This document shows positions 35,847 to 55,562 of a stretch of 64,000 nucleotides of DNA, piece by piece. Location of the stretch: positions 124,001 through 188,000 of the forward strand of contig NZ_JACZCQ010000009.1 in assembly GCF_014904705.1 (NCBI RefSeq). The letters run 5' to 3'. The notes beneath the pieces were generated by a model. It had not been told where the DNA came from. It was given only the letters and a program-made list of their open reading frames with translations, and did not search any database. Numbering within the stretch: position 1 is the stretch's first letter; every line of letters begins with the position of its first letter. The DNA comes from Nisaea sediminum (lineage in GTDB: Bacteria > Pseudomonadota > Alphaproteobacteria > Thalassobaculales > Thalassobaculaceae). A program made the translations under genes and the position numbers.

Positions 35847-35856
35847 GACCGCTTCC

Positions 35857-37024: not shown

Positions 37025-38039
37025 GTTTGGCGAGGAAATGCTCCGTTGCGTCTCCCGCCATCTCCTCACGTAACTCGATTACGAACTGCTCGGCAAAGCC
37101 GGAGAATTCAAGGTCCTTGCGAACTGCGACATAGGTCTCGAAAGAGGTGTCCGCCTCGATCGGCAGGACCGCGACGCGTCCGTCCATGTCGAGTTCGTCG
37201 CCAATCGTGAAGCGGTCGATCACCGCCATTCCCATGCCCTGCTTCACCAACTGAACGACGGTCGTCCCGAAGCGCGCGCGGATTGCGATGTCGTATGAGA
37301 GACCGCGCTCCTCGAATATGCGCGCCATGATGCCGCCGTAGGGGTCGTTCGGATCGATACCGATCAGCGGGCGCTTCGAGATCTCTTCCGGCGTGATCGA
37401 TTTTCTCTTCGCCTGCGGGTCATTCGCGCCGACGATACAGACGAGGCTGCCGCGTGCGAGCGGCAGGAACTCGATGGAGGGATGGTCGAACTTGTAGCTC
37501 ATGCAGACCAGTTCACCCCGTCCAAGCATAAGGAAGTCGATGGCTTCCTCAATCTTCAGCACCTCGATATTCAGTTTGATGTCCGGGAAGCGGCCCTTCA
37601 GGCGGGCGGCAGCTCGAGGCACCATCACATGGGCGATGCTGGGAACCGAACCGATCGAGAGTTCGACGTCCTGCCCGCGCCCAAGCTGGTTGATCGAGAA
37701 TTGAAGATCGTCGAGCTTCTTGTGGACTTCCTGCAGCTGGGCGAAGACGTCGCGCGCTTCTGGCGTTGGGGTGAAGCGCCCGCCCTGACGCGTGAACAGC
37801 TTGATGCCGAGCACCGAATCCAAATGCTTGATGGTCCTGCTGACGCCGGGCTGCGCCACATTAAGCAGGCGTGCGGCGCCGGCGATCGAGCCGCTGACCA
37901 TTATCGCCCTGATTACTTCGATCTGACGCAGCGTCAGTGCCTTTTCCAACCTTGGTCCGCCCCCGGCCGTCTCGCGATCCCTCGATCCTAGATCGAAGGG
38001 CGGGGGGAGAACAGGGCGCGGGTCAGGAACAGGCGGCAT
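37020..38039 (-). CDS. LysR family transcriptional regulator
   Basis: A 339-aa regulator. N-terminal winged helix: LTLRQIEVIRAIMVSGSIAG, AARLLNVAQPGVSRTIKHLD. C-terminal periplasmic-binding-like sensor domain follows. The first 30 residues before LEKALTLRQ are proline-rich and unusual; a TTG start near 37943 would give a normal LysR N-terminus, so the ATG at 38039 is doubtful. It lies upstream of tctCBA-quiC on the same strand and is the obvious regulator, sensing perhaps a dehydroshikimate-related acid. The first part overlaps a small ORF. Confidence 0.85.
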   Translation of the reverse strand: MPPVPDPRPVLPPPFDLGSRDRETAGGGPRLEKALTLRQIEVIRAIMVSGSIAGAARLLNVAQPGVSRTIKHLDSVLGIKLFTRQGGRFTPTPEARDVFAQLQEVHKKLDDLQFSINQLGRGQDVELSIGSVPSIAHVMVPRAAARLKGRFPDIKLNIEVLKIEEAIDFLMLGRGELVCMSYKFDHPSIEFLPLARGSLVCIVGANDPQAKRKSITPEEISKRPLIGIDPNDPYGGIMARIFEERGLSYDIAIRARFGTTVVQLVKQGMGMAVIDRFTIGDELDMDGRVAVLPIEADTSFETYVAVRKDLEFSGFAEQFVIELREEMAGDATEHFLAKP

Positions 38040-40254: not shown

Positions 40255-41172
40255 CTATTCGACGGCGTCTGCTCCGCGTTCATAACTCTCGACCTTGATG
40301 CGGTCGCGCATCCAATCGAGGAACTTGATCAAGGTGCGTGACGGTTCCGAATTCTTGGGCCATGTCAAAAAATATCCTTCGCCACTGTAACAGGTCAGGT
40401 CGCCGAATGGCGCAACCAGACTGCCGCTCTGCAATTGTCGTTTGACGAAAATCTTCACGGCCAGTGCGACCCCGCTATCCATGGACGCCGCTTCATAGGC
40501 CAGCGCCGAATTTTCGAAGCGAATACCAGGCTCCGGGTCAACCTCCGCGCCGACTCGTTTGATCCATGCGGTCCAGTCCGTCGGGCGCGCCATTGAGTGC
40601 AGCAGGCGCACACGCCCGAGTTCGTCCGGTTCGATTAGCTTGTGCTGTCGCTGATATTCGGGAGTGCAGACCGGGATGAGTTCGACGTCGACCAACTTCT
40701 CGGAATGCAGGTTCGGCCAATCGCCTTTCCCGGCTCTGATCGCGGCATCCAGATTCTGGCTTTCGAAATCGACAGGCGCGATCGAGGAACTCAGGCGCAC
40801 CTCAATGCGTGGGTGCGTATCGTGAAAATTTGTCAGGCGCGGGATGAGCCAACGCTGCGAGAATGTCGTATAGGATTGTATGGCTAGGATGTCGCGCCGC
40901 CCGCGACGGGACACACGTCGCGCGGCCGTGGCGATATCCTGGAAAGCGTGGGATATTCCTTCGTACAGCTGACGCCCCTCATCGGTAAGTTCCACGCCGC
41001 GATGCAAGCGCCGGAACAGGGCCACCCCCAGATAATCCTCCAGCGTCTTGACCTGACGGCTGACCGCGACCTGACTGACGTTCAACTCCTCCGCAGCCAG
41101 CGTCAGACTGCACAGACGTGCTGCAACTTCGAAAGTGCGCAGCGGATTAAGGGGAGGAACCGGGTGCATCAT
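40255..41172 (-). CDS. GcvA-like LysR family regulator
   Basis: A 305-aa regulator with N-terminal 'PPLNPLRTFEVAARLCSLTL', AAEELNVSQVAVSRQVKTLE and LFRRLHRGVELTDEG, the pattern of the GcvA/AmpR subgroup. The C-terminal sensor domain holds SYTTFSQRWLIPRLTNFHD. It is oriented like the long catabolic operon and sits at its far end, downstream of the thiolase (154 bp gap), so it may control it in trans. The substrate it senses is unknown. Confidence 0.9.
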   Translation of the reverse strand: MMHPVPPLNPLRTFEVAARLCSLTLAAEELNVSQVAVSRQVKTLEDYLGVALFRRLHRGVELTDEGRQLYEGISHAFQDIATAARRVSRRGRRDILAIQSYTTFSQRWLIPRLTNFHDTHPRIEVRLSSSIAPVDFESQNLDAAIRAGKGDWPNLHSEKLVDVELIPVCTPEYQRQHKLIEPDELGRVRLLHSMARPTDWTAWIKRVGAEVDPEPGIRFENSALAYEAASMDSGVALAVKIFVKRQLQSGSLVAPFGDLTCYSGEGYFLTWPKNSEPSRTLIKFLDWMRDRIKVESYERGADAVE

Positions 41173-41325
41173 TTTTTCGGTCTTGCTGTTTGCAATCCCC
41201 TCACGACGGAATCAGATCGAATTGAAACGAGGGGGGCGACAGAGTCACCCATGGGCGATACTCTGATCACTACATTCATAAATCGAAAACACGCCCTTTA
41301 TTAATACAAGGCCAATGATGGAAAG

Positions 41326-42525
41326 CTAGAGCCGTTCCAACGCTATGGCGATCCCCTGGCCGACGCCGATGCACATGGTCGACAGCGATTTCTCACCCGG
41401 TTTCAAATCCAACATCGCCGTACCTGTGATCCGCGCACCCGACATGCCGAGAGGGTGACCCAATGCGATGGCGCCGCCATTGCGGTTTACGCGAGCATCG
41501 TCATCAGGAATTCCCAGATCACGCAGGGTCGCCAGACCTTGAGAGGCAAAGGCTTCGTTCAGTTCGATGACCGCGAAGTCCTGTTGCACAAGGCCAAGCC
41601 TTGCCATCATCTTCTTAGATGCGGGCGCCGGGCCAAAACCCATGATGCGCGGAGCGACGCCGGCGGCTGCACCGCCCAGAACCCTGGCAATCGGAGTCAG
41701 CCCGTTTTTCTCGGCGGCTTCCATCGTCGCCAGAACCAACGCCGCCGCGCCGTCATTGACTCCCGAGGAATTGCCCGCCGTCACACTGCCGTCAGCTTTT
41801 ACGAAGGTCTTGAGGTTCTGCAGATCCTCGAGCCTTGTCGACGGGCGTGGGTGTTCATCCATCGTCACCACGACCGGATCGCCCTTGCGCTGGGGGATGC
41901 TGACAGCGGTAATTTCCTGCGCCAGTCGCCCACTCTCCATCGCCGCAGCAGCCTTGTGCTGCGATCGTAGAGCGAACGCATCCTGATCGGCGCGGCTGAC
42001 GCCAAAATCCTCGGCCACGTTCTCCGCCGTTTCCGGCATGCTGTCGACGCCGTACTGAGCCTTCATCAGCGGGTTGACGAAGCGCCAGCCGATCGTCGTG
42101 TCGTGGATTTCGTTGCCGCGGCCGAAGGCCGTCGTCGCCTTGGGCATCACGAAGGGAGCGCGGGACATGGACTCGACGCCGCCCGCGATAATCACTTCGG
42201 CTTCTCCGGCCTTGATCGCGCGCGACGCCGTGATCACAGCATCCATGCCTGACCCGCAGAGCCGATTGATCGTCGTGCCGGGCACGCTGTCCGGGAAGCC
42301 TGCCAGCAGCAGCGACATCCGGGCTACGTTACGGTTATCTTCGCCTGCCTGATTGGCGCAACCGAAGATGACCTCATCGACGGCGGCCAAATTCAGCCGT
42401 GGATTTCGCTCGACCAGCGCCCGCAACGGAATTGCCCCCAAATCGTCAGCGCGCACCGAAGACAGCGCACCGCCATAGCGGCCGATCGGCGTGCGAATGT
42501 AGTCGCATATGTAAACGTCCGTCAT
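41326..42525 (-). CDS. thiolase, 3-oxoadipyl-CoA thiolase (PcaF/PaaJ)-like
   Basis: A 399-aa thiolase with acyl-enzyme Cys90 in TTINRLCGSGMD, base His in ALGHPLGMSGAR near residue 357 and second cysteine in STMCIGVGQGIA near 385; all three catalytic residues are intact. The start DVYICDYIRTPIGRYGGALS and overall pattern resemble PcaF/PaaJ, which cleave 3-oxoadipyl-CoA to succinyl-CoA and acetyl-CoA. In this operon it would perform the final thiolytic step. Start at 42525 is preferred over the first Met at 42543. Confidence 0.9.
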   Translation of the reverse strand: MTDVYICDYIRTPIGRYGGALSSVRADDLGAIPLRALVERNPRLNLAAVDEVIFGCANQAGEDNRNVARMSLLLAGFPDSVPGTTINRLCGSGMDAVITASRAIKAGEAEVIIAGGVESMSRAPFVMPKATTAFGRGNEIHDTTIGWRFVNPLMKAQYGVDSMPETAENVAEDFGVSRADQDAFALRSQHKAAAAMESGRLAQEITAVSIPQRKGDPVVVTMDEHPRPSTRLEDLQNLKTFVKADGSVTAGNSSGVNDGAAALVLATMEAAEKNGLTPIARVLGGAAAGVAPRIMGFGPAPASKKMMARLGLVQQDFAVIELNEAFASQGLATLRDLGIPDDDARVNRNGGAIALGHPLGMSGARITGTAMLDLKPGEKSLSTMCIGVGQGIAIALERL

Positions 42526-42598
42526 ATCCCTGGTCCTCGGCACAATAAGGCTCTGGCGGAGCTGCCATCCACCTCCGCAGCAATGGGCGCATGTCGGG

Positions 42599-44665
42599 TC
42601 AGTCGAGCACGATCAGGCTGTCGCCGGCCCACGCTCCCTGTCCTTCCGGCAGAACGAAAACCGGGTTGATCTCGGCTTCACTAAGGCGACTATCGAGAGT
42701 CTCCGCCATGGCCGAAAATGCGATCATGGCGTCGATCAGAGCCTCGATGTCGGCCTTGGGTTTGCCGCGGAATCCCCGAAGCAGAGCGCCTGCCTTTATC
42801 TCGTCGATCATGTCCCTTGCGCTGGCACGGTCCAGCGGCAAAAGACGGATCGCCACGTCGTTATACAACTCGGTCGTCACGCCGCCCGCCCCCAGCAGGA
42901 CATAGGCTCCCAGTTGAGGATCGCGATTGTATCCGAGGATCAGCTCGACCCCGCCCGTGACCATTTCCTGCACGAGAAAGCCGTCAATCTTTGCCGATGT
43001 CGCCGCCCGCACGCGGGCCATCATGGCCGCGCATTCACGACCTACGTCTGCCGGATCGACGTTCAACACGACACCGCCCATCTCGGACTTGTGCAGAATC
43101 TCGTTCGACAGAATCTTGATTGCCACACGGCCGCCGAAATCGCCTGCGGCTTTCGCCGCCGCGTCCGGTGTCTCTGCCGTGACTTCGCGCGTCACCGATA
43201 TGCCGAAGCGGGCAAATACCTTCTTAGCGTCCGCCTCGTTGAGCGTTCCGGCAGGAACATCGCTGCAATCAATATTCTTCGCATTCGAGGCGCTTTCATT
43301 TCGCCCATCCCTCGGCGCTGCCAGAGAGTGCAAGGCCGAAGCACAGCTTTCGGGCGCGGCAAAAGCCGGAATCCCCCTGGCATTGAGCTGGCGGATGATG
43401 CCGGGCGCATCCGGACTGACGTAAGCCAAAATGGGTTTGTCGGTCAGTGCCAGCGTTTCAAGAACCGGCTGAGCGACCAAATCGGGTTGGGCAATCGACG
43501 ACGACCCGACAACCACGACAATCGCGTCATAGCTGGGGCTTTCGACCAATATCCGCAGGACCGCGCGGAAGAGGTCGGGACGCAGCCCGGCCAGCGTCAC
43601 GTCAATCGGGTTCCGGTCAAGCTCTGCCTCCTTCAGTTCCAGCTCGATCAGCTTGCCGGCGGTCTCCGTGTCGGGTGCGGGTACTTCCAGGCCCAATAGA
43701 CCGACATTGTCCGCCACCACAGTGGCGGCACCGCCGGTCGAGGTCACGATGGCCACACGATTGCTTGTCATCGCACGGCCTTGTGCCAGCGCCGCCGGAA
43801 TGTCCAACAGGTCGGCAAAGGTCCGGGCGCGGATGATGCCAAGCTGCTTGAATAGCGCATCATAAACCTCGTCGGCTCCGGCCAGCGCGCCGGTGTGCGA
43901 CACCGCAGAGCGCGCGCCGGATTCCGAGCGCCCGACCTTGTAGGCAACGATGGACTTACCGGCTGCGGTCGCCTTTGTGGCCGCCGAGCGGAACTTGCGT
44001 ACGTCGCGGATGGTTTCCAGATAAAGCGCGACCACTTTCGTCTCGTCATCCTCAGCCAGCGCCTCAAGAAAATCCGAGACTTCCAGATCGGCCTCGTTGC
44101 CCGTGGCCACCAGCTTGGAAAAGCCGATGCCTCGTGCAACGGCCCGCGACAACAGCGAACCGAGGATGCCTCCCGATTGCGACAGAAGAGCGATCTTGCC
44201 GGCCGGCAGGTCCTCGACTTCCATCGCTCCTGACGCGGTCAGCGGAATCCCCTCGGTCAGGTTCACGGCGCCAATGGTATTAGGCCCGAGAATGCGCATG
44301 CCTCCTGCCGCTTCACGCAATTGCTCCTGCCGCTCGCGGCCGTCCGCTCCCGCCTCGCCGAAACCTGAAGCAAGGACAATCGCCGCTTTGGTCCCGCGCG
44401 CTGCCAGATCGCGCACTGCCTCGACAACTCGATGCGCACCCACAAGCACGAGGCCCAGATCCGGCGCTTCCGGTAGGTCCGCGACGTTGGCATAACTTCT
44501 CAGCCCGGCAATCTCTTCATAGCGCGGGTTGACCGGATAAATCGCGCCCGCGTACCCATGCTTTTGCAGGAAGGCAATCGGTCGCCCGGTCAGCTTTGCC
44601 GGATCGTTCGAGGCCCCGACGACAGCAACGCAGGCCGGGTTCAGAATGGCGCGCATCTTGGACAT
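42599..44665 (-). CDS. NDP-forming acid-CoA ligase (acetate-CoA ligase family)
   Basis: A 688-aa protein with fused alpha and beta parts: N-terminal CoA-binding VAVVGASNDPAKLTGRP, the succinyl-CoA-ligase-like middle with the phospho-histidine motif AVSHTGALAG (about residue 260), and a C-terminal ATP-grasp domain (VAIKILSNEILHKSEMGGV) from about residue 470. Such enzymes make or break acyl-CoA with ADP/ATP. Together with the CoA-transferase of the same operon it gives two ways to add or remove CoA. Acid substrate unknown. Confidence 0.9.
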   Translation of the reverse strand: MSKMRAILNPACVAVVGASNDPAKLTGRPIAFLQKHGYAGAIYPVNPRYEEIAGLRSYANVADLPEAPDLGLVLVGAHRVVEAVRDLAARGTKAAIVLASGFGEAGADGRERQEQLREAAGGMRILGPNTIGAVNLTEGIPLTASGAMEVEDLPAGKIALLSQSGGILGSLLSRAVARGIGFSKLVATGNEADLEVSDFLEALAEDDETKVVALYLETIRDVRKFRSAATKATAAGKSIVAYKVGRSESGARSAVSHTGALAGADEVYDALFKQLGIIRARTFADLLDIPAALAQGRAMTSNRVAIVTSTGGAATVVADNVGLLGLEVPAPDTETAGKLIELELKEAELDRNPIDVTLAGLRPDLFRAVLRILVESPSYDAIVVVVGSSSIAQPDLVAQPVLETLALTDKPILAYVSPDAPGIIRQLNARGIPAFAAPESCASALHSLAAPRDGRNESASNAKNIDCSDVPAGTLNEADAKKVFARFGISVTREVTAETPDAAAKAAGDFGGRVAIKILSNEILHKSEMGGVVLNVDPADVGRECAAMMARVRAATSAKIDGFLVQEMVTGGVELILGYNRDPQLGAYVLLGAGGVTTELYNDVAIRLLPLDRASARDMIDEIKAGALLRGFRGKPKADIEALIDAMIAFSAMAETLDSRLSEAEINPVFVLPEGQGAWAGDSLIVLD

Positions 44666-44676
44666 CGCGGAAAACC

Positions 44677-45477
44677 TTATTTCGACAGCTTGTTGAGAAA
44701 ATCTTCGACCGCTTTTCGGTGTTCCGCCGTCGTGTAGCAGACCGCCTGCGCCTTGCGGCCAAGCGCGAAGATCTCCTCATCCGACCGCTCGAAGGTCTTG
44801 TCGATGATTTCCTTGGTCAGGGCGATTGCCGTGGCGGAACCCACGGTCAGCTCCTTCGCCCACGCATGCGCCTCGTCCAGCAGCGCGCCGGGGGCAGCAA
44901 CTCGGTCGATCAAGCCGATAGCCAGCGCTTCCGCAGTTGCCATGACCTTGGCCGAAAAGATCAGTTCCTTGGCTTTGGGCAAGCCGACGCGGCGAGGCAG
45001 GAAATACATGCCGCCACCATCTGACACGAGGCCCCGCTTGATAAAGCTCATCGACATCTCGGAGCCTTCGGCAGCGATGATGAAATCGCAGGCCAGCGCC
45101 ATGTCGAGCCCAAGGCCATATGCATCGCCGTTGATCGCCGCGATCACAGGTTTGGTGACCCCGTGGATGGCGGCCACGCCGCGGTGCGTGCTCTTCTGCC
45201 TTTTCCAGCCGTTGAAGGCCACCTCGCCAGAGGGCGCCTCAAGTCGCGCCCGCATCCCAGCTATATCGCCGCCCGAGCAAAAGCTCTTGCCTGCGCCGGT
45301 CAGGATGATCCCGCGGACCTCCGTGTCAGCATCCGCGTCTGTAAAAGCCGCAATCAATTCCGCACGCATCTGATCGTTGATCGCATTGCGCTTGTCGGGG
45401 CGATCCAGCGTGATCGTGGCGATTCCCTCGCAGTTGGAAACGGTGATGAACTCTGGCAGAGAAACTGCGGTGTTCAT
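44677..45477 (-). CDS. crotonase, PaaG-like enoyl-CoA isomerase/hydratase
   Basis: A 266-aa crotonase with N-terminal 'GIATITLDRPDKRNAINDQM', oxyanion loop KSFCSGGDIAGM and 'INGDAYGLGLDMALACDFII'. The two catalytic-glutamate positions of hydratases are aspartates or absent (GLGLDMA and GLVSDGGGMYFLPRRVG). The GLVxDGGG form is known from PaaG-type isomerases, so double-bond shift is as likely as hydration. It lies between the ligase (11 bp) and the PrpD gene in one operon. Confidence 0.88.
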   Translation of the reverse strand: MNTAVSLPEFITVSNCEGIATITLDRPDKRNAINDQMRAELIAAFTDADADTEVRGIILTGAGKSFCSGGDIAGMRARLEAPSGEVAFNGWKRQKSTHRGVAAIHGVTKPVIAAINGDAYGLGLDMALACDFIIAAEGSEMSMSFIKRGLVSDGGGMYFLPRRVGLPKAKELIFSAKVMATAEALAIGLIDRVAAPGALLDEAHAWAKELTVGSATAIALTKEIIDKTFERSDEEIFALGRKAQAVCYTTAEHRKAVEDFLNKLSK

Positions 45478-45517
45478 GGCTATTCCTTCTCATCAATGCG
45501 CAGCCGAGGCAGCGATT

Positions 45518-46873
45518 TCAATTCTTAACTTTTGTTTTCTTGGTCACAGCGTCGGGCAGTTCGGCGCCGTCAAAAATGATCCGGCGCAGCCGGTCCTTCT
45601 CCGCCTCCGGCAGAACAGAAGTAGCCAGTTCTTCATATTTTGCCATTAGATCGGCCAACGAGATCGGGTTGTCCGGATCACCGCGCCGCGAGCGTTGGAA
45701 ATGCGACAGTTTGCGCCCGTCCTTTAGCTGCACATGCAGACGAGCCATGCGTTTGCGCGGATATTCTGTCGCCAGATCCTCGGCCCTCTCAACGGTGATG
45801 CGCGGCATGATCGCGCGTATATTCGGGTCCCTCAGAGCTTCGGGCGTGAATGCGGCAAGCCGCACGCCTCCCAGCACCAACAGTGCCGACAGACAGTACT
45901 GCGCACTGAATCGCGCCTCCTGCGCGCTCCGCGGGTTCGGACGGTCGCAAATATCCTTGGTGGCACCGTAGCCTTCGATGTGGATCGCCTCGACCGCCTC
46001 GGGACCGAAGCCGTGCTCGGCACGCAGCATCGCGAGAGCATCCAGAGACGGAAAAATGTGCCCGCAACAGCCGTGGATCTTTACCGTCATGCGAGTGATC
46101 GGCGTCCAATCCCCCGCGCCCTCAAATGCAGCCTCCCAATTGCCGATGCCATCGCTGGTTGCCGCGGCATAGCCTTTGGAACCATCCAGGCTTTCCCAAG
46201 AGCCGGTCGCCCCGGCAAGGGCGGCGTAGGCGGCCAGGATTCCCGCATCGGCGGCATGTCCGGAATGCATCGCTTTCACCATGCTCTGTCCCTGGAGGTT
46301 TTGCTGAATGCCGCCGGCAAGGCTGGCCGAGATGGCGAGTGCATTGGCGATCCCGTCGCGGTCGCAGCCAAGCAGCATCGCCGCAGCCGCAGCCGCTCCG
46401 AAGGTACCGACAGTGCCCGTGATATGCCAGAACTCGTAGTGGCTGGGTTGCAGTGCCATCGCCAAGCGGCAGCCGACCTCGTAGCCGCCGATCACCGCGC
46501 GGTCGAACGCATCCCTCGGCGCACCTATATCCTGCGCTACGGCCAACGCCGCTGCAAAGGTTGGTGAACCGGGGTGATAACCGCCATCCCGGTATATATC
46601 GTCGAACTCGACCGTGTGGCTGGCCGATCCATTGATGAAGGCGGCTCCGCGGGGATCAATCCGCCGTTCACTCGTATAACACCAGGCATTGCCGCCCGGG
46701 CGGCCAAGTCCAGTCGCCGACAACAAAGTGGCCGGAGCCTGCAATGTGCCCGGCAGGGTCGTGGCGAACCAGTCCAGCGTCGCGCAATGTACCGCGTGAA
46801 GTACCTCGGGCGGTATGGGCACGTGCAACCAATCTGCGGCCAGACCGGCCAGTCTTTCGATAGCGGTTGTCAT
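45518..46873 (-). CDS. MmgE/PrpD family protein
   Basis: A 451-aa protein of the MmgE/PrpD superfamily, which includes 2-methylcitrate dehydratase and cis-aconitate decarboxylase. Seen: DWFATTLPGTLQAPATLLSA, the conserved 'GSASHTVEFDDIYRDGGYHP' (active-site histidine/aspartates), LLGCDRDGIANALAISASLA and KIHGCCGHIFPSLDAL. ATG 46873 overlaps the CoA-transferase stop (ATGA), so the pair is coupled. Likely a dehydratase or decarboxylase acting on the imported polycarboxylate. Exact substrate unknown. Confidence 0.88.
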   Translation of the reverse strand: MTTAIERLAGLAADWLHVPIPPEVLHAVHCATLDWFATTLPGTLQAPATLLSATGLGRPGGNAWCYTSERRIDPRGAAFINGSASHTVEFDDIYRDGGYHPGSPTFAAALAVAQDIGAPRDAFDRAVIGGYEVGCRLAMALQPSHYEFWHITGTVGTFGAAAAAAMLLGCDRDGIANALAISASLAGGIQQNLQGQSMVKAMHSGHAADAGILAAYAALAGATGSWESLDGSKGYAAATSDGIGNWEAAFEGAGDWTPITRMTVKIHGCCGHIFPSLDALAMLRAEHGFGPEAVEAIHIEGYGATKDICDRPNPRSAQEARFSAQYCLSALLVLGGVRLAAFTPEALRDPNIRAIMPRITVERAEDLATEYPRKRMARLHVQLKDGRKLSHFQRSRRGDPDNPISLADLMAKYEELATSVLPEAEKDRLRRIIFDGAELPDAVTKKTKVKN

Positions 46874-48108
46874 GACTGTGCCTCTTCCCTGGCTACCAAG
46901 CTTCCGGCCTGCAGCGCCAGACCGGCCAGACACAGTGCTTCGATTTCGTCATCGCCAAAGCCGATGGAACGCAGAACTTCCGCCGTTTGCGCCCCCACCC
47001 GCTGAGGTGGCAGGGTCACACCGGAATCCGACTGCGACATCCGGAACGCGACCGAGGGAACCCGTAGCCCGTCAAGGCGGCCGCTAGGGTCCGCCAGCCG
47101 CAGGAATTGTGCGCGTGCCTCGGCTTGGGGGTCGTTCAACGCCTCTTCCAGGCGGCGAACGCGGGACGCCGGGACCCGTCGCTCCGTCAGGAACTCTTCC
47201 CAATAGGCGGCGGGCATGGTCGAGATGATCGACTCCAGCGCCGCGTGCTCTGTCTCATAATCGTCGATCCGAGACAGGTTATCCGACTTGACGAGATCCT
47301 CGCGGCCCAGCCCGATCCACAGCCGCCGCTGCTGACGCAGGTTCGAGGCGGCGATCATAATCGGGCCATCGGAAGCCTGAAACATGCCCAACGTCGCGAA
47401 GGCAAACTTGTTGCCTTTGGCCTTGGGGTGTTTGCCCGTCCAAAGGAAATCCGTCGCGGGCGCGGTCATCAACGTGAGCGCGACGTCCAGCATTGACACT
47501 TCGATGTTTTGCCCCATACCGGTGCGTTCACGCTGGAACAGCGCGGCGGAAATCGCAAAGGCCGCCGTCAAGCCGGTCGAATAGTCAACAACGGGCGCGC
47601 CACATTTCAGCGGGCGGTCATCGCCATGTCCGGTCATGTCCATGATACCGGAAAAAGCCTGAATAACATTGTCATAGCCGGTCTGATGCCGGCGCGGTCC
47701 GGTTGCACCGAAGGCGGACACCGAACAATAGATCAGGCGCGGATTGATCCGGGCCATATCCTCATAACCGAGCCCCAGCTCGTTGAACGCGCCAGGTCGG
47801 TAATTTTCCACAAAGACATCGGCTGTCTCTATTAACCGCAGCAAGGCACCACGGCCCGCCTCGGATTTTAGATCCAGCGCCAGCGCTTTCTTGCCAGCGC
47901 CTTGCGCCAGAAACGCTGTTCCCATGGCGTCCCGAACCAGATCGCGATCGGTGCCGGTGAACCGGGCCTGATCGGGGTCATTCGGAGCCTCGAGCTTGAT
48001 CACCTCCGCTCCCAGAAGCGCCATCTGGTAGCTCGCGTAAGGGCCGGCAAGAACATGCGTCGTGTCAACGACCCGCAGGCCGGTGAATGCACCGGTCATG
48101 TTGGACAC
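46870..48108 (-). CDS. CaiB/BaiF family CoA-transferase
   Basis: A 412-aa class III CoA-transferase. Seen: GLRVVDTTHVLAGPYASYQM, LGAEVIKLEAPNDPDQARFT, 'LDLKSEAGRGALLRLIETAD', VFVENYRPGAFNELGL and 'HQTGYDNVIQAFSGIMDMTG', all in the family order. The family moves CoA from a donor acyl-CoA to a carboxylic acid. It starts 69 bp after a hairpin that follows tctC and overlaps the PrpD gene. It probably activates the imported acid. Confidence 0.92.
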   Translation of the reverse strand: MSNMTGAFTGLRVVDTTHVLAGPYASYQMALLGAEVIKLEAPNDPDQARFTGTDRDLVRDAMGTAFLAQGAGKKALALDLKSEAGRGALLRLIETADVFVENYRPGAFNELGLGYEDMARINPRLIYCSVSAFGATGPRRHQTGYDNVIQAFSGIMDMTGHGDDRPLKCGAPVVDYSTGLTAAFAISAALFQRERTGMGQNIEVSMLDVALTLMTAPATDFLWTGKHPKAKGNKFAFATLGMFQASDGPIMIAASNLRQQRRLWIGLGREDLVKSDNLSRIDDYETEHAALESIISTMPAAYWEEFLTERRVPASRVRRLEEALNDPQAEARAQFLRLADPSGRLDGLRVPSVAFRMSQSDSGVTLPPQRVGAQTAEVLRSIGFGDDEIEALCLAGLALQAGSLVAREEAQS

Positions 48109-48137
48109 CTTCCGTGAATGAGAAACCGTCTGAGAAC

Positions 48138-48165
48138 GGCCTCTCCTTTGTTCGAAGGAGAGGCC
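48138..48165 (-). terminator. hairpin after tctC (2)
   Basis: GGCCTCTCCTT (48138-48148) and AAGGAGAGGCC (48155-48165) pair perfectly over 11 bp with a 6-base loop. It lies between tctC and the CoA-transferase on the minus strand. Without a U-run it is more likely an mRNA-protecting or attenuating hairpin than a full terminator. Confidence 0.6.
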
Positions 48166-48177
48166 GGGAACGAAAAA

Positions 48178-49167
48178 TCACTCGATAATGCCAGCCGCCT
48201 TGAGCTGTTCTTCCGCCACAGAGCTCATCTGCTTGATAAAGGCCGAATATTCTTTGGGGCCGTAATCGCTGTCCTGGACCCCGGCCGCGCGGGCGTAGGT
48301 CTGGTAGCTGTCGCTCGCCATGGCCTTGTGGATGGCATCGGCGATCTGCTGCTGCAGCTCCATCGGCATGCCCTTGGGACCAAAGACACCGCGAATCTGC
48401 AGCCAGCTGGTGTCCACGTTGTAACCCTGCTCGCCAAAGGTCTGCATGTCGGGCAAAGAAGCCAGACGCTTGTCGCCGAGAACACCAAGTCCTTTCAGGC
48501 GGCCCGCCTCGAAAAACGACAGGGTCGGACCGAGGTTGGATACGCCGACATCCATGTGCCCCCCGAGAACGGCGGCGATGATATCGGGGGTCGACTGGTG
48601 GGCAACCCAGTTGAACTTCACGCCTGCGGCTTTTTCCAGCATCGCCATGCCGATATTCTGCATCGAGCCGACGGGACCGAAACCGGCGATGTTCACTTCG
48701 CCGCCATTGGCTTTGGCCAGTTCGACCAGATCGGTGATCGAGTTCAGTTTGGAATCCTTGGCCACGAAGAACATGATCGGGTCGATCTGAGCCAGCGCAA
48801 TCCACTCGAAATCTTCAGGCGAAAAGGTGCCGCGCAGATTGGTTTTCATGCCGGTCAGGTGGGTGACGGTGTTGACGCCAAGGGTCAGACCGTCGGGCTT
48901 GGCCACGCGAAGCTTGGCCATTTGCGTCGCACCGCCGCCGCCGGGTGCGTTTACAACCACGATAGACTGGCCGATGATCGGCTCCAACTCTTTTGCCAGG
49001 GTCCGGCTGAACACATCGACACCTCCTCCCGGCTTGGTATGCAGAACAAAGCTGACTGGCGCATCCGGAGCCCAGTCTTTGGCCTCCGCACTCTGGGCGA
49101 CGCTCAATGTCAGGGTCGCGACGCCGACGATGCCCAAGACCAGTTTCTTAAGGTTGCACGCTGTCAT
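48178..49167 (-). CDS. tctC: tripartite tricarboxylate transporter binding protein TctC (2)
   Basis: A 329-aa Bug/TctC periplasmic protein. The signal peptide spans about residues 1-28 (LKKLVLGIVGVATLTLSVAQ). The mature domain has FVLHTKPGGGVDVFSRTLA and VVVNAPGGGGATQMAKL, the two ligand-binding loops. It is only distantly similar in text to the first TctC, so the ligand should differ. It lies after tctA with a 118-bp gap containing a hairpin, and before the CoA-transferase. Confidence 0.92.
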   Translation of the reverse strand: MTACNLKKLVLGIVGVATLTLSVAQSAEAKDWAPDAPVSFVLHTKPGGGVDVFSRTLAKELEPIIGQSIVVVNAPGGGGATQMAKLRVAKPDGLTLGVNTVTHLTGMKTNLRGTFSPEDFEWIALAQIDPIMFFVAKDSKLNSITDLVELAKANGGEVNIAGFGPVGSMQNIGMAMLEKAAGVKFNWVAHQSTPDIIAAVLGGHMDVGVSNLGPTLSFFEAGRLKGLGVLGDKRLASLPDMQTFGEQGYNVDTSWLQIRGVFGPKGMPMELQQQIADAIHKAMASDSYQTYARAAGVQDSDYGPKEYSAFIKQMSSVAEEQLKAAGIIE

Positions 49168-49231
49168 TTCTTCCTCCCATGGCAGTCTTCGAATTTTGCG
49201 GTGTTCCCACCATGGGGGTAGTTTCCGTGTT

Positions 49232-49271
49232 CCCGTTGCCTGGGTGAACTGAGCGTTTGTCAGGCAACGGG
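49232..49271 (-). terminator. hairpin between tctA and tctC (2)
   Basis: CCCGTTGCCTG (49232-49242) and CAGGCAACGGG (49261-49271) pair over 11 bp with an 18-base loop, in the gap after tctA on the minus strand. It may attenuate or process the transcript so that tctC is expressed separately. Confidence 0.5.
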
Positions 49272-49285
49272 GACTCGAAACTTGG

Positions 49286-50782
49286 TCAAATCGACCTGGC
49301 CTTGGCGCGGCGGGCCCGCACCAGGGATACGCCGGGCCAAACGAGAGCCAGAACGGCGATCAGGATTAGGATCACGGTCATGGGCGAGGTGTAGAAGATG
49401 TCCCATTCGCCTTTGTTCGAGATCAGCGCGCGTCGGAAGCTGGTTTCCATCATTTCGCCGAGGACCAGTGCGAGGACGATCGGCGCCAGTGGAAACTTGA
49501 GCTTGCGCAAGACATATCCCAGCACACCAAACACTGTCATGACATGAACCGGAAACATCGTGGTGTGCGAAGCGTAAGCGCCGACAAAGCAGATTCCAGC
49601 GACGATCGCGGCAACGGCTGGGCGCGGGATATTCGCGACATGGGCCCAGACCTTTGCCCCCGCTAGACCGACCAGCACCATCACCGGCACGCCGACCCAA
49701 AGCGAAGCAAAGACCGTGTAGGGGATTTCGGGCGATCTGGCGAATAGAAGCGGTCCCGGCTGGATGCCCTGGACCATCAGCGCACCGACCATAATCGCCG
49801 TTGTGGGAGAACCCGGAATGCCAAGCGCCAGCAGAGGCGCCAATGCCCCGGCCACAGCAGAATTGTTCGCCGCTTCCGATGAGGCAACCCCTTCGAGGGA
49901 GCCCTTGCCGAATTTCTCCGGTGTCTTGGAAGCCCGTTTGGAAACCGCATAGGACACGAAGGATGCGATGGACGCTCCTGCTCCGGGAATGACTCCGATC
50001 GCATAACCGAGTACAGAACTGCGCAGGATGACCTTTTTGAGGCTCAGGATCGTTTTAACCGGCAATGCCAGGAGTCCGCCAATCGGTGTACTCTTCAGTT
50101 TTTCCGACGGACCCTCCTCAATCATGAATAAGACCTCGGAAAGAGCGTAGAGTCCCAGCAGAACGGGAACCAGCGGCAGACCTTCATAAAACTCGGGATT
50201 GCCCATTGAGAAACGTGGCACGCCTGTCTGCACATCGAGACCGACAGTGGCCAGTGCGAGACCGATCCCCATCGCCACAGTTCCTTTAAGTGGCGATCCT
50301 TCAGAAAGGCCGGCCACAAGACTGAGACCCACCAGGGCCAAGGCAAAGTATTCCCCCGGGCCAAAGCGCAGGGCGAATTCGGACAGCGGAACCGCTGTCA
50401 GGATCAGGAACAGGGTCGAAATGAAGATGCCCGCGCCCGACGACAAGATCGAAACCGTCAGCGCTTCTCCCGTCCGTCCCTGTTTGGTCAGCGGATAACC
50501 GTCCCAAGAGGTAGCGACCGCGGCGGCGGTACCAGGAGAGTTGATCAAGATTGCGGTGATCGCGCCACCATATTCCGCCGCGGCATAAAGCGCGACAAGA
50601 CCGACGATCGAAACGACCGGATCCATTCCATAAGTGAACGGGATCAACAGCGCGACGCCGAGGCTCGGACCAAGGCCCGGAATAGCCCCAATCAGGTAGC
50701 CCGCCAAAGCGCCAAATACGAGGGCGATCCAGACCATTGGGTCGCCAAAGGCGGAAAAACCGATCGCAAGACTCTCAAGCAT
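49286..50782 (-). CDS. tctA: tripartite tricarboxylate transporter large permease TctA (2)
   Basis: A 498-aa permease with about twelve helices and TctA motifs: ALAGYLIGAIPGLGPSLGVA, EYGGAITAILINSPGTAAAV and NNSAVAGALAPLLALGIPGS. The start at 50782 is taken because the frame above it is arginine-rich and antisense. It follows tctB by 11 bp. In contrast with the first TTT system, the gene order is tctB-tctA-tctC, showing a different origin. Confidence 0.92.
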   Translation of the reverse strand: MLESLAIGFSAFGDPMVWIALVFGALAGYLIGAIPGLGPSLGVALLIPFTYGMDPVVSIVGLVALYAAAEYGGAITAILINSPGTAAAVATSWDGYPLTKQGRTGEALTVSILSSGAGIFISTLFLILTAVPLSEFALRFGPGEYFALALVGLSLVAGLSEGSPLKGTVAMGIGLALATVGLDVQTGVPRFSMGNPEFYEGLPLVPVLLGLYALSEVLFMIEEGPSEKLKSTPIGGLLALPVKTILSLKKVILRSSVLGYAIGVIPGAGASIASFVSYAVSKRASKTPEKFGKGSLEGVASSEAANNSAVAGALAPLLALGIPGSPTTAIMVGALMVQGIQPGPLLFARSPEIPYTVFASLWVGVPVMVLVGLAGAKVWAHVANIPRPAVAAIVAGICFVGAYASHTTMFPVHVMTVFGVLGYVLRKLKFPLAPIVLALVLGEMMETSFRRALISNKGEWDIFYTSPMTVILILIAVLALVWPGVSLVRARRAKARSI

Positions 50783-50793
50783 GTTGCGGTCCT

Positions 50794-51294
50794 TCAGGGC
50801 AAATTGACGTCGAGCGCGAGGCGGAAAACGAGATAGATGAACGCGGCCAGCGCGACGGGAACACCGATCAGGTGCAATGGTCGGCGCTCGCCGCAAGCCA
50901 GCATCGTTAATAGGGCAAAGGTCAGAACGCTCGGCAGCATGCCGAGCGCTTCGAAGCAGATTGACTGGAGAACCAGAAGCCCAACTGTTGCCAAAACGAA
51001 TAGCGGCCGCCGGATCGACACCCAGATAACGGGTACCGGGTCCACCAATCGCACGATGGCGGCACCCGCGACCGACACGATGGCGATCAAGGTGGCAACA
51101 GCCAGCAAGATGGGAAATCCGCCGGCCCCGATATCGATCTTGTTGAACGGTGGCGGCAGAGCCGAAGCCTGCGCGAAATATTGCCAGAACATCACCAGGA
51201 GTGCTGCGCAGCCGATCAAGTCGAGTATCGGTAAAGAACCGCGAACCACGTCCATCCGGACCCGCCAGCCTGACGCTGTGTGGTCTTCTTCCAT
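50794..51294 (-). CDS. tctB: tripartite tricarboxylate transporter small permease TctB (2)
   Basis: A 166-aa protein with four membrane helices (about residues 18-35, 50-72, 88-120 and 135-160). Normal TctB size. It is the first gene of the catabolic operon that ends with the thiolase. Assigned through topology and position beside tctA. Confidence 0.85.
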   Translation of the reverse strand: MEEDHTASGWRVRMDVVRGSLPILDLIGCAALLVMFWQYFAQASALPPPFNKIDIGAGGFPILLAVATLIAIVSVAGAAIVRLVDPVPVIWVSIRRPLFVLATVGLLVLQSICFEALGMLPSVLTFALLTMLACGERRPLHLIGVPVALAAFIYLVFRLALDVNLP

Positions 51295-52088
51295 TTGATC
51301 CTCCCGCGCCGGAGCCGGTGTCGATGCCTCGGCAAGCCTTTTTTTGCCACCATCGCCGATCCGCCCGGAAGCCGTGAACTAAGTATTCGTTTGTCTAGGG
51401 CGTACTTTGAATTGGTCTTGGAAATCCTTTTGAATTCAAAGCTATGGATGGACATGAAGGGATTGAGCCTTCGATTTGACCTCATGCAGAGATCGGCTCC
51501 CTGACGTGCAGCGACGCCAATCGCGACTGAGGCAACCGTATGCCGTGGGCTGCTTTGTGCCCGGTCAGGTGCTCAGGTGCGGCCTTCGTCGTCGCCTTGA
51601 TCTTGCTGTTCCTTCCGGCGCGTTACACCGCATGTATCCGGCTCAAGCAGACTGATGAAAGCATTAGTGAGGCCGAGGGTCGGCATTCTCATCTCGATCT
51701 GCCATCACGCCTAGTCACAGACCTTTAATCGGAGATGCGAATTCGACATACGGCGGGCCGAGATCGCTTTTCGGTCTGAGAGGTCGCTTCTGGCCGGCCA
51801 ATTCTCCCCTAGTCCAGGGAGCGTGGGGTGAGGAGCTTCCAAACTCTCCAAGCTCGGTAGACATCGCTGAGTCCTCATAAAGGAACAGCCCCTCCCTCCT
51901 GATCTGGGATTCAATCCCTCCGCGCTCATCCTGGCAGCAGGCGACCCTAAGGGGTCACTTCCGCGAGTAGCAAAGGCACCGTCTCTTGGTTTTGCGGATC
52001 ATTTTGCTCAGTCATGCATCGCTTTGAGGCCCGAGATGGTGTTGCTGATCGGTCCCCACAGTCGCATACGCAGATTCTTAAGACGGTC
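51295..52088. other. 790-bp stretch without convincing gene
   Basis: The first 150 bp must contain the promoter of the catabolic operon on the minus strand; I cannot name the boxes with confidence. The rest holds only short frames with poor codon patterns and no start signals. The segment near 51795-51840 carries CTCCC/GGGTGAGG complementary blocks of a kind seen in dispersed intergenic repeats. Probably decayed DNA between two acquired blocks. Confidence 0.5.
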
Positions 52089-52949
52089 TCATAGCCCCTG
52101 ACCGGGGCCTTTCCCCGGTTCCTCGCCAGGCCACAGTCTGGTTGCGGCCGCGAGGTCGGGCCAGCCGATGGGCGCGCCGGCCTCGCGGGCAGCCTCGCGC
52201 TCCGGAAGCGAGGTGTTCCAGAACCCCGCGATATAGCGCTTGCCCGTGATGCCGTCGGAGTCCGGGCTGGCCAGCCATGCCGCCGGCGGTCCCATGACGG
52301 ACGGCTTGAGCATCTTCTCCCTCGGAATGCCGGCATCGGGATGGATGAAAGCGGTATCGGTTGGGCCTCCCGGAACCAGGACATTCACCGTCACGCCGGT
52401 GTCCTTGAGTTCAGCCGCCCATACGGCCGAGCTTGCCTCCAGTGCGGCTTTCAGCGGGCCGTATGGGAGGACACGCATCATGGTGATGAAGCTGGTCGTA
52501 TTGTTGATGACCCGGCCCCAGCCTCGCTCGACCATGGCGGGGACGGTGGCGCGGATCATGTGGACCGCCCCCATGAAGTTGATGCGGTAGAAGCGGTCCA
52601 TCAGATCGGGCGTCAGTTCCGTGATTGTCGGAAGGTTGGTTTCCGCATCGCCGCGAAAGCTGCTGACGCTGATGCCGGCATTGTTGAAGAGGATGTCGAC
52701 GCTGCCGAAGCGGTCAACCGTATCCCTGACGGCGCGCACACAGTCCGCTTCCTTGGAGACATCGTGCGCGAGCGCGATGGCGGATCCGTCTCCGTGCGCC
52801 TTGTTAAGGTTCTGCGCCACCTTTTCGGCAGCTGCGAGATCGATGTCTGTCACCGCGATCCTGACGCCGCGCGCCGCAACGGCGCTCGCCATGGCAGCTC
52901 CTATCCCGCCTCCGCCGCCGGTTACCATGGCTACCCTGGACTGAATCAT
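52089..52949 (-). CDS. SDR family oxidoreductase
   Basis: A 286-aa short-chain dehydrogenase. The NAD(P) loop TGGGGGIGAAMASAVAARG starts at residue 10; NNAG occurs as FNNAGIS near residue 90; the catalytic tetrad reads NTTSFITMMRVLPYGPLKAA (Ser, then Tyr-Gly-Pro-Leu-Lys). The last 60 residues form an extended tail with WNTSLPEREAAREAGAPIGW. Substrate unknown. It stands alone, high in GC, between the decayed stretch and the integrated element. Confidence 0.9.
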   Translation of the reverse strand: MIQSRVAMVTGGGGGIGAAMASAVAARGVRIAVTDIDLAAAEKVAQNLNKAHGDGSAIALAHDVSKEADCVRAVRDTVDRFGSVDILFNNAGISVSSFRGDAETNLPTITELTPDLMDRFYRINFMGAVHMIRATVPAMVERGWGRVINNTTSFITMMRVLPYGPLKAALEASSAVWAAELKDTGVTVNVLVPGGPTDTAFIHPDAGIPREKMLKPSVMGPPAAWLASPDSDGITGKRYIAGFWNTSLPEREAAREAGAPIGWPDLAAATRLWPGEEPGKGPGQGL

Positions 52950-53202: not shown

Positions 53203-53333
53203 GGCGTCATAATTAATTCATAAAAATCAATTAATTATTATATTTCTTCGTTTCATGTGATTGCATAACAGGTCATGTTCGCTCATCATTCTGTGGACCA
53301 GAAATGGACCAGATCTTTGCCGATGGAGCACGC

Positions 53334-54545
53334 ATGGCAACCACCGACACCGTTTATCGGAGTGCGAAACCTCGCGCCGATCTATACGAGATCCAAGACA
53401 GCGAGGTTCGCGGGTTGGCATTGCGCGTGCATCCAACCGGCTCGAAATCGTGGTCCACGCGTTTATCAATTAGGGGCGCAGGCAGGGTCAGGCGGGATCT
53501 TGGTGCTTATCCGTCCATAGGCGTCGCACAGGCCCGGCGGATCGCGGAAGATTGGCGGAACCAAGCTCGGCGTGGGATAGACCCGCGAGATGAGTTCATC
53601 CGACCTTCAAAGCTGACACTCAAAGCTGCGGCAGATCTTTGGCTGTCGGCAAGCACCAACCGGTCAGCTGATCAATGCCGGCGTCGTCTCGAACTCCACG
53701 TACTGGGTTTTGAGAAGATCGGTGATCTTGATGTCCGAGATATCGAGCAACGTCATGTGGCTCGGCTGCTCACGCATCTGAAGACAAAGAAGCGGCTCAC
53801 TGCTGAGGTCAACCGCGTCCGAAGCACCCTCAGCGCCCTCTATTCGTGGTTGGTCACACAAGGAGAGGTGCAGGAGAACCCAGTGGCGCGGACGGCGAGG
53901 GTTGAAGAAACCAGCATCCGGAAAGCGAAGGAAGGCAACTCCAGGGTGCTGAACGTTACCGAGATAGTGAGGATCTGGCGTTCCGCCGAGCAGTTGCAGC
54001 CCATTCCACGAGCGCTCATCCGGCTGCTCATACTTGTACCGCTTCGTCGACAGGAATGGACGGAGGTCAATCGCGCCGAGGTGATCGAAATAGACGGGTA
54101 CACATGTTTGTCGCTTCCGGCTTCCCGGATGAAGGGGAGGCGCCCACATCTGGTGCCATTACCTCAGCAGGCCGTTGAGATCTTGGAGGCGATGCCACAG
54201 CTGGGGGACATGATTTTCTCGACCGATGGAGTGAGGCCATACGCTGGATGGCGATCTGCCGCCAAGGCGGCCCGTGTCTCAGCGGAACTTGATGAGCCGT
54301 GGTGCGTGCACGATCTGCGTCGGGGTGTCGCCACAGGCATGGGGGAGCTTGGCATTCCGGAAAACGTCATTGCCAGAATACTTGCTCATTCGCCAATGAG
54401 GTTGATGGGGGTGACCGCCGTGTATGATCGCTCTCAACGCCTGAGGGAGCTTAGCAATGCTCTGAACCGGTGGGCCGTATTCATCGAGCAGGAAGTGCTC
54501 GGGCGCCGAAACGTGGTGTCGCTTCCGTTGGGGCAGATCCAATGA
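53334..54545 (+). CDS. int: tyrosine-type integrase of a genomic island
   Basis: A 403-aa recombinase. Arm-binding N-terminal domain (DUF4102-like: SAKPRADLYEIQDSEVRGLA and LGAYPSIGVAQARRIAEDWR), core-binding middle, and catalytic domain with Arg238/239 (LVPLRRQEW), His326-x-x-Arg329 (HDLRRGVAT), His352 (LAHS) and Tyr364 (VYDRS); all catalytic residues are present. ATG 53334 follows GGAG; an earlier ATG at 53304 exists. It is the first gene of the element and would integrate and excise it. Stop overlaps the next gene start (ATGA). Confidence 0.92.
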   Translation: MATTDTVYRSAKPRADLYEIQDSEVRGLALRVHPTGSKSWSTRLSIRGAGRVRRDLGAYPSIGVAQARRIAEDWRNQARRGIDPRDEFIRPSKLTLKAAADLWLSASTNRSADQCRRRLELHVLGFEKIGDLDVRDIEQRHVARLLTHLKTKKRLTAEVNRVRSTLSALYSWLVTQGEVQENPVARTARVEETSIRKAKEGNSRVLNVTEIVRIWRSAEQLQPIPRALIRLLILVPLRRQEWTEVNRAEVIEIDGYTCLSLPASRMKGRRPHLVPLPQQAVEILEAMPQLGDMIFSTDGVRPYAGWRSAAKAARVSAELDEPWCVHDLRRGVATGMGELGIPENVIARILAHSPMRLMGVTAVYDRSQRLRELSNALNRWAVFIEQEVLGRRNVVSLPLGQIQ

Positions 54546-55105
54546 GCGGGTCGCGGAGGAAGCGGCTCAAAATCATCCCGGAAGATCTAATGACGATTGA
54601 AGGAACCGTTGAGGGCGGTGATCACGAAGCTCATTGCGTGATGCTGCTCTTGGGGCTTCGCGCCAAAGGCTATGAGGTCGAACTACCTCGTCACGCCTTG
54701 GATGTTCTCGGGAACGCATTCTCCGGAGCCGTTGAAGCCATCCTTGAAGGTAGAAATTCGCGAGATGTCTCTGATGCTCTTGCGAAAGGTCTTGGGGTGG
54801 TCGGCTCCAGCGGTCCGAGTGACCTACAATATTTTTCAGAGCATTGGAGATCACATCTCCGAGTAGAAGCGATAGCCTACTATCGGGCTAAGCAAGGTTT
54901 ATCCATCCGGGAAGCGGCGATCCGAGCCTCCGACGATTGGCCGGAGCTTGGTGGCGCCGATGTCATTCGCAAGGCTTGGGAGGGCCGAGCGAAGTCGTGG
55001 ACGGATGCAAATGGCCAAGTGCACAAATCTCCTCTCGTCGGCGAGCGCTGGGCAGAGAATGGTCATGGACGGGAATTGATCGAACGGTTCTCAAAGCGAA
55101 TATAG
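54542..55105 (+). CDS. integrase-coupled hypothetical protein
   Basis: A 187-aa soluble protein translated in overlap with int. It begins with basic SGSRRKRLKIIPEDLM, then EGGDHEAHCVMLLLGLRAKG. From about residue 105 it has helices 'HLRVEAIAYYRAKQGLSIRE' and AAIRASDDWPELGGADVIRK, which look like a DNA-binding helix-turn-helix. I do not recognise a named family. The coupling suggests a role in recombination directionality or integrase control. Confidence 0.7.
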   Translation: MSGSRRKRLKIIPEDLMTIEGTVEGGDHEAHCVMLLLGLRAKGYEVELPRHALDVLGNAFSGAVEAILEGRNSRDVSDALAKGLGVVGSSGPSDLQYFSEHWRSHLRVEAIAYYRAKQGLSIREAAIRASDDWPELGGADVIRKAWEGRAKSWTDANGQVHKSPLVGERWAENGHGRELIERFSKRI

Positions 55106-55209
55106 CCCCAAATCCTGCGATGATTTGTAGGGCGAGTTGCGGTCGTTTGAGCGGCTATTCGTTCTCCTGCGACGAGATGATCGTCGTTGACATGTAGAGG
55201 AGATCAACG

Positions 55210-55398: not shown

Positions 55399-55411
55399 CA
55401 ATCAAAAATAA

Positions 55412-55437: not shown

Positions 55438-55562
55438 ATCACTCCCGAACAACGCCGCGCAACGCCCGCGACATCGTCACCAACACATCTGCCACCCTAC
55501 ATGGCAGTCATTAAAAAGTCAACTATTTGAGTGCGTTATGCGGCCTCATATGAGGTCGAGAT

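Follow-up and report, generated by a model that had tools for sequence, protein, structure and literature searches.

A putative MmgE/PrpD isomerase in a probably mobile, CoA-dependent catabolic operon of Nisaea sediminum

The window analyzed here, 64,000 nt of Nisaea sediminum (assembly GCF_014904705.1, contig NZ_JACZCQ010000009.1, positions 124,001–188,000, forward strand), contains a genuine, mobile catabolic operon with a probable isomerase step, the candidate isomerase being a member of the MmgE/PrpD family. The open reading frame (ORF) list together with Pfam/NCBIfam scans places eight genes on the minus strand in the order tctB-tctA-tctC-CaiB-MmgE/PrpD-crotonase-ADP-forming acyl-CoA ligase-PcaF thiolase, and a ninth, encoding a GcvA-type LysR regulator, lies behind the thiolase gene and is conserved together with the block. 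The original prediction of a CoA-dependent catabolic operon with its own tripartite tricarboxylate transporter (TTT) named the eight genes as lying together in one direction; all were found, uninterrupted, and conserved gene order elsewhere backs the grouping. Its bounds hold for these eight genes but left out the regulator, and the lateral acquisition was missed. We tentatively favor a transferred, co-regulated operon that would import a branched di- or tricarboxylic acid of the 2-substituted succinate type and degrade it by CoA-dependent beta-oxidation. The features, with identities given to the Tropicibacter locus L034, are as follows.

50794–51294, minus strand: tctB, small TTT membrane subunit (PF07331 46.3 bits, cut-off 29.1; 78% identity)
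49286–50782, minus strand: tctA, large TTT membrane subunit (PF01970 483.8 bits; 91% identity)
48178–49167, minus strand: tctC, periplasmic binding protein with a signal peptide-like N terminus (PF03401 125.2 bits; closest solved relative 25HK, 139 bits)
46870–48108, minus strand: CaiB-type (class III) CoA-transferase (PF02515 347.7 bits; Asp175 matches the Asp of four solved relatives)
45518–46873, minus strand: MmgE/PrpD protein, proposed isomerase/epimerase of a 2-substituted succinate (PF03972/PF19305; seven active-site residues; model nearest 2hp3/2hp0)
44677–45477, minus strand: PaaG-like crotonase, proposed enoyl-CoA isomerase (PF00378, ECH_1; Asp153 aligned with the PaaG Asp)
42599–44665, minus strand: ADP/NDP-forming acyl-CoA ligase, ACD type, alpha and beta fused (PF13380, PF13607, PF13549)
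41326–42543, minus strand: PcaF/PaaJ 3-oxoadipyl-CoA thiolase, with an ATG at 42525 (TIGR02430 and NF006551 above cut-offs; Thiolase_N/C)
40255–41172, minus strand: GcvA-type LysR regulator, end gene of the block (NF008352 289.8 bits, cut-off 288; 86% identity)
51374–51392, minus strand: candidate operator AAACGAATACTTAGTTCAC, about 80 bp before tctB (1 match in 64 kb)
40266–51396, minus strand: extent of the module by DNA homology (blastn to L033, L034 and L035)

Intergenic gaps from tctB through the thiolase gene are 11, 118, 69, −4, 40, 11, and 73 bp, with 153 bp more to the LysR gene. For two genes the ORF list probably places the start too far upstream: tctA (TTG at 50896) is better started at ATG 50782, and MmgE (GTG at 46933) at ATG 46873, the latter being preferred because it overlaps the CaiB stop by 4 bp and because the 20 extra N-terminal residues of the ORF-list version have a predicted local distance difference test score (pLDDT) below 50. 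All nine genes are open, without stop or frameshift, and their nonsynonymous-to-synonymous ratios (pN/pS) against L034 are 0.09–0.22 (Nei-Gojobori script, dS 0.8–1.4), values that suggest purifying selection on each gene and mostly reflect time preceding transfer.

The same gene order occurs in Tropicibacter (L034), Pseudooceanicola (L035), a further locus (L149), and plasmid pB of Sinorhizobium meliloti LMB1 (L113); in Celeribacter (L033) it holds up to the contig end at the ligase, and L036 and L037 carry their LysR and thiolase genes inverted relative to the window. Because this order recurs in several other genomes, the operon is, as judged from gene order, not a chance grouping. In a scan of named genomes that kept 80 of 121 MmgE relatives, CaiB, MmgE, and crotonase were each at least 50% identical in five of the 80 MmgE loci (L033–L037), and the same five encode a window-type TctA. 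Three further clusters of the window type lie on S. meliloti LMB1 pB, in L149, and in Agrobacterium salinitolerans (L116), whose record stops after the crotonase gene and has tctA annotated in pieces. CaiB matches at E 1e-125 or better were found in 4 of 394 genomes of Tropicibacter's family, two with the operon and two (G768 and G623) in a different setting.

The block apparently is a horizontally transferred module common to the host and Rhodobacterales, since its DNA matches Rhodobacterales at 78–81% whereas MmgE finds weak matches in the host's own order. By blastn, homology to L034 covers 40266–41157 and 41322–51335 (79–81%), that to L035 reaches 51305 (78–79%), and that to L033 covers 42488–51396 (79%). 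Among the matches listed from 36 genomes of the host's order (host included), no MmgE protein from another genome exceeds 49% identity, a value reached only by fragments; of 385 genomes drawn from the class, only the host's gave an MmgE match with an E value of 1e-120 or lower. The G+C content is 60.6% for the block, 63.7% for window positions 1–40000, and 55.0% for 53300–64000, a stretch beginning at a phage-type integrase gene.

The MmgE protein belongs to its family by PF03972 (185.2 bits) and PF19305 (128.1 bits; cut-off 32.1 each), and all 16 aligned relatives share its H106, E109, H120, Y166, H170, K220, and K285 (471-aa ORF numbering). All seven match the active-site residues of Pseudomonas aeruginosa methylsuccinate isomerase, His88, Glu91, His102, Tyr148, His152, Lys202, and Lys266, at an offset of 18 throughout and of 19 for the last Lys (PMC12290011). 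The full set is also carried by two Cupriavidus proteins that we take, from their neighbors, to be putative methylsuccinate isomerases, as they lie between genes for an acyl-CoA dehydrogenase and what appears by eye to be a MaoC-type hydratase. At the Tyr position, human cis-aconitate decarboxylase has Met and Escherichia coli PrpD has Asn. An AlphaFold2 model of the window protein (mean pLDDT 86.9) matched iminodisuccinate epimerase best (2hp3/2hp0, TM 0.82–0.83), with full-length matches to decarboxylases at TM 0.72–0.77 and to dehydratases at 0.66–0.72. MmgE is therefore predicted to be, probably, an isomerase or epimerase of a 2-substituted succinate. The dehydration or decarboxylation previously assigned to it is not supported by the Tyr-His pair, which is that of the family's two known epimerases/isomerases and not that of the decarboxylase or PrpD. 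The seven-residue set would be necessary, not sufficient, for the function of a two-base isomerase such as methylsuccinate isomerase or iminodisuccinate epimerase. Assignment as methylsuccinate isomerase proper fails, in that the protein falls in a separate clade and ich and ccl are absent from the operon. Nor is it PrpD: NF042438 gives 35.9 bits against a cut-off of 950, and prpB/prpC-type partners are absent from the operon.

The remaining enzymes are consistent with a CoA-dependent route ending in thiolysis. CaiB is a class III CoA-transferase by its CoA_transf_3 domain (347.7 bits) and active-site Asp175, and it scores below the cut-off of every characterized transferase; succinyl-CoA as its donor is a guess. 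The ligase combines CoA_binding_2, Succ_CoA_lig, and ATP-grasp_5 domains, and its best solved relatives are 4-hydroxybutyrate-CoA ligase (8wzu, 309 bits) followed by dimethylsulfoniopropionate lyase (7cm9, 242 bits). The crotonase aligns best to PaaG-type structures, and its Asp153 corresponds to the Asp in the GLxxDxGG motif of E. coli PaaG and Thermus-type PaaG, a residue which we take to be catalytic; one of the aligned entries, 6sla, has Asn there. It has Phe at the hydratase Glu of E. coli PaaF and, unlike PaaG, Asp at PaaF's other Glu, and it misses the PaaG equivalog cut-off (TIGR02280, 157.7 against 345.15). The thiolase passes the cut-offs for 3-oxoadipyl-CoA thiolase (TIGR02430, 672.7 against 597; NF006551, 708.9 against 605) and is 64% identical to E. 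coli PaaJ. TctA, TctB, and TctC all score above their Pfam cut-offs, establishing a TTT transporter.

In the pathway we tentatively favor, TctBAC would import the acid, and MmgE/PrpD would invert the C2 stereocenter of the free acid by two-base, enolate chemistry, making both isomers usable. CaiB would load CoA from succinyl-CoA, and the ADP-forming ligase could provide a second, ATP-driven activation of the acid or of a product. The thioester would be oxidized by the host's acyl-CoA dehydrogenase of the type linked to MmgE in related loci, the double bond moved by the PaaG-like crotonase, and a 3-oxo ester formed by a host hydratase/3-hydroxyacyl-CoA dehydrogenase (FadB in relatives); PcaF would then release acetyl-CoA and succinyl-CoA, the latter reloading CaiB. 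Gene content, order, and conservation, active-site residues, thiolase family, and acquisition are read from sequence; for the isomerase role, the CoA donor, and the order of steps, we infer from these data. According to PMC12290011, the substrates known for MmgE/PrpD enzymes have a 1,4-dicarboxylate backbone in common, and methylsuccinate isomerase uses the free acid rather than the CoA ester and works beside a CaiB transferase and an acyl-CoA dehydrogenase.

The gene set had been thought sufficient from uptake to thiolysis; the CoA-dependent route stands, but acyl-CoA and 3-hydroxyacyl-CoA dehydrogenases are absent from the operon. Since genes for both activities are absent here and adjacent in relatives, the host must supply them. 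In L033–L035 a FadB-type gene lies directly before tctB, which is not so in the window, where homology to these loci stops about 100 bp before tctB; FadB is absent also from the L037 locus. A search for FadB, AbrB, or hydrolase remnants between tctB and the integrase matched only an SDR (short-chain dehydrogenase/reductase) gene, with nothing else better than E 0.02. Candidate 3-hydroxyacyl-CoA dehydrogenases occur elsewhere in the host genome at 33–36% identity. The acyl-CoA dehydrogenase at issue, defined by at least 50% identity to that of Agrobacterium T29, is present in 42 of the 80 MmgE loci, in 36 of them with an ACD1-type ligase; its nearest named family is 3-sulfinopropanoyl-CoA desulfinase, whose cut-off it does not reach. 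The host has 17 matches to this enzyme, a single one above 38% identity. That one, at 64%, adjoins an MmgE paralogue on contig 12 (L124:7464–10836), where a HAD-family gene is also seen by eye; this locus seems to represent an older host counterpart with the same chemistry. The host's other close thiolase copy (67%) has a crotonase gene and a dehydrogenase gene as neighbors, in what is probably the host's paa cluster.

Several observations weigh against the favored pathway. The active-site Tyr recurs in unassigned family members, namely the host's third paralogue (C1) and two of three further Cupriavidus paralogues. MmgE is only ~30% identical to the two putative Cupriavidus methylsuccinate isomerases, and a tree, with long branches flagged, separates these two from the window clade (18 rows, support 98/99). 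CaiB reaches 235.8 bits against the succinate-glutarate transferase family NF052585 (cut-off 750). FadB and acyl-CoA dehydrogenase genes are absent from the window, and the T29-type acyl-CoA dehydrogenase is absent from the DNA compared around L033–L035 and L113. The closest solved relative of TctC binds unsaturated alginate oligosaccharides (PMC13390454), and its closest folds bind terephthalate. We could devise no single, simple 2-substituted succinate that plain beta-oxidation would take exactly to 3-oxoadipyl-CoA, and the branched acid of this type is a candidate class only. Deducing the substrate from TctC was abandoned, as model and sequence returned general TctC relatives only.

A version that accommodates the thiolase, improbable in itself and with a substrate drawn from paper chemistry, would start from a C7 tricarboxylate that is chiral, for instance butane-1,2,4-tricarboxylate (3-carboxyadipate), and MmgE would add a third type of epimerase to its family. 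After CaiB has loaded CoA from succinyl-CoA, the linked-type dehydrogenase would act like glutaryl-CoA dehydrogenase, with oxidation and decarboxylation yielding hexenedioyl-CoA; this would be converted to 3-oxoadipyl-CoA by the PaaG-like enzyme together with FadB, and PcaF would yield acetyl-CoA and succinyl-CoA for CaiB. Such a scheme would employ every enzyme except the ADP-forming ligase. We rate the C7 substrate itself as less likely than the general proposal, a new pathway led by an isomerase and leading to 3-oxoadipyl-CoA.

The prediction that no known route is matched as a whole has held up. Plain itaconate, methylcitrate, and beta-ketoadipate routes are set aside as wholes, their partner genes being missing from the operon, and word searches of open-access literature found this gene set described nowhere among the matches listed, the closest being PMC12290011. 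The itaconate/methylsuccinate cluster of Cupriavidus and Pseudomonas (ict, ich, mcd, mmgE, ccl) shares with the window a CaiB-type transferase adjoining an MmgE/PrpD protein with the same active-site residues, and it ties MmgE to an acyl-CoA dehydrogenase, as do loci related to the window; the window operon, in contrast, is without the MaoC hydratase and citramalyl-CoA lyase and adds the PaaG-like crotonase, ADP-forming ligase, PcaF thiolase, and TTT transporter. Thiodipropionate catabolism in Variovorax paradoxus TBEA6 also combines a CoA-transferase, acyl-CoA dehydrogenases, and crotonases with suggested TTT import of a dicarboxylate, but its gene set differs and MmgE/PrpD is not mentioned in the available part of the source (PMC6370202). 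The lower phenylacetate and beta-ketoadipate routes (PaaF, PaaG, PaaH, PaaJ; PcaIJ, PcaF) share the PcaF/PaaJ thiolase and a PaaG-like crotonase, and the FadB of the relatives can replace PaaF and PaaH; however, the window has CaiB instead of PcaIJ, so that it is not a beta-ketoadipate pathway, as well as an additional MmgE and ADP-forming ligase, and ring-opening genes are absent. In benzylsuccinate beta-oxidation (bbs), a class III CoA-transferase uses succinyl-CoA on a 2-substituted succinate, followed by beta-oxidation and thiolysis, as proposed for the window; it differs in being anaerobic, with a two-subunit transferase, another thiolase, and neither MmgE nor TTT. PrpD of the methylcitrate cycle and cis-aconitate decarboxylase have the MmgE/PrpD fold of the window protein but not its active-site Tyr, and their partner enzymes are absent from the operon.

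The alternative that survives best, though we consider it unlikely, is a linear C6 dicarboxylate route (adipate, 3-hexenedioate, 3-hydroxyadipate, or lactone-derived oxoadipate) in which CaiB replaces PcaIJ/DcaIJ and MmgE serves a side reaction. In its favor, the thiolase fully clears the PcaF cut-offs and the crotonase resembles PaaG; together with FadB, these amount to the lower phenylacetate/adipate route. In two Rhodobacteraceae clusters (L150:9507–12919 and L151:8338–13032), CaiB relatives stand with genes for an SDR, a 4-sulfomuconolactone-hydrolase-like amidohydrolase (239.3 bits, cut-off 500), and a carboxymuconolactone-decarboxylase-like protein, and in L151 a PcaF 73% identical to the window's adjoins the CaiB relative; both appear to encode another acid pathway. 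Yet MmgE is the most constant neighbor among the loci compared, adipate lacks the 1,4-dicarboxylate core of known MmgE/PrpD substrates, and MmgE and the ACD ligase would be superfluous. MmgE also stays with the crotonase and ligase in a second cluster type (Martelella L114, L108, L039–L041, L152, and in part Agrobacterium L038/L117), which has an SDR, often a D-2-hydroxyacid dehydrogenase, and a different TTT set, and itself lacks CaiB and PcaF.

Two further readings are each poorly probable. A variant of the itaconate/methylsuccinate pathway, the nearest described combination, would account for CaiB beside an MmgE with the same seven residues, but it would leave the thiolase without a role, and it meets the absence of the MaoC-type itaconyl-CoA hydratase and citramalyl-CoA lyase from the operon and the ~30% identity noted above. 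The original prediction's own version, in which MmgE dehydrates or decarboxylates an imported tricarboxylate before any CoA chemistry, draws on other MmgE/PrpD enzymes that do so and on a transporter family that carries tricarboxylates (PMC13390454). Either activity is made unlikely by Tyr166, and the low NF042438 score, a model nearer the epimerase, and the absence of a citrate-synthase- or lyase-like partner gene from the operon point the same way. Decay or a non-functional import that left FadB behind, as the missing FadB gene and the lack of an upstream remnant might suggest, is least probable, given nine intact genes, their low pN/pS (with its mostly pre-transfer origin), the absence of FadB from L037 too, and the host's other 3-hydroxyacyl-CoA dehydrogenases.

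Joint regulation of transporter and enzymes is favored, as something the data speak for and do not prove, by their conserved association and by the sole good candidate operator, which lies before tctB. Transporter and enzyme genes are kept together in 5 of the 80 MmgE loci, plus L113, L116, and L149. Alignment of the tctB leaders of the window and L033–L035 gave one conserved 19-bp stretch, with its exact core in L033, L034, and L035, and a single window match at up to three mismatches (0.01 expected). As the motif was drawn from these four leaders, only the remaining loci test it independently: it reached 15/19 in L149 and L116 (as good in 1 and 0 of 200 shuffles), 13/19 in L036 and L037 (10 of 200 each), and 12/19 in L113 (39 of 200). 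Before the window's LysR gene nothing notable was found (11/19, as good in 155 of 200), nor was there anything notable before MmgE of L038, and an additional promoter scan gave sites no more numerous than in shuffles.

About 20 kb from the Tropicibacter operon, L153:5808–14375 holds sugar-type ABC transporter genes, an esterase-like gene, a second TctC (45%), and two alpha/beta hydrolases as found in S. meliloti LMB1. A glycoside substrate, considered from a sugar ABC transporter, a GH3 gene, and esterases near L037, L117, and L153, was dropped, as these occurred in 3 of 20 stretches, two of them non-independent, in a comparison where some stretches share a genome and most were picked for holding MmgE.

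Elsewhere in the window, a second TTT set occupies 31865–38039 on the minus strand (TctA 33795–35300, TctC 35857–36957, LysR 37020–38039), beside a gene that fuses a xylose-isomerase-like barrel (PF01261) to an HPPD-like domain (PF14696). The fusion recalls 3-dehydroshikimate dehydratase, and this locus may feed protocatechuate. Between the integrase and the module lies a lone SDR gene (52089–52949, minus strand), with a strong terminator-like hairpin upstream (53132–53107); it was rejected as an operon member, being 0.8 kb distant, outside the homology block, and at most 31% identical to the SDRs of related clusters. The region 53304–64000 opens with the phage-type integrase gene, and the low-G+C stretch after it encodes a primase-polymerase/AAA protein as well as a type I restriction system, comprising HsdS (60414–61613), HsdM (62224–63975), and HsdR, the last mostly past the window end (L125:1777–5145); PADLOC candidates are PDC-S11 (58279–59388) and PDC-S21 (59342–60400).

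For most MmgE/PrpD proteins a reaction has yet to be assigned. Through this operon one subfamily, which occurs in both alpha- and betaproteobacteria, becomes linked to CoA activation and a specific acyl-CoA dehydrogenase, and for the window type also to 3-oxoadipyl-CoA thiolase. The operon offers a compact, movable gene set for direct testing of the MmgE reaction and its natural substrate. If the favored pathway is true, branched acids would require a dedicated stereo-inversion before being burned.

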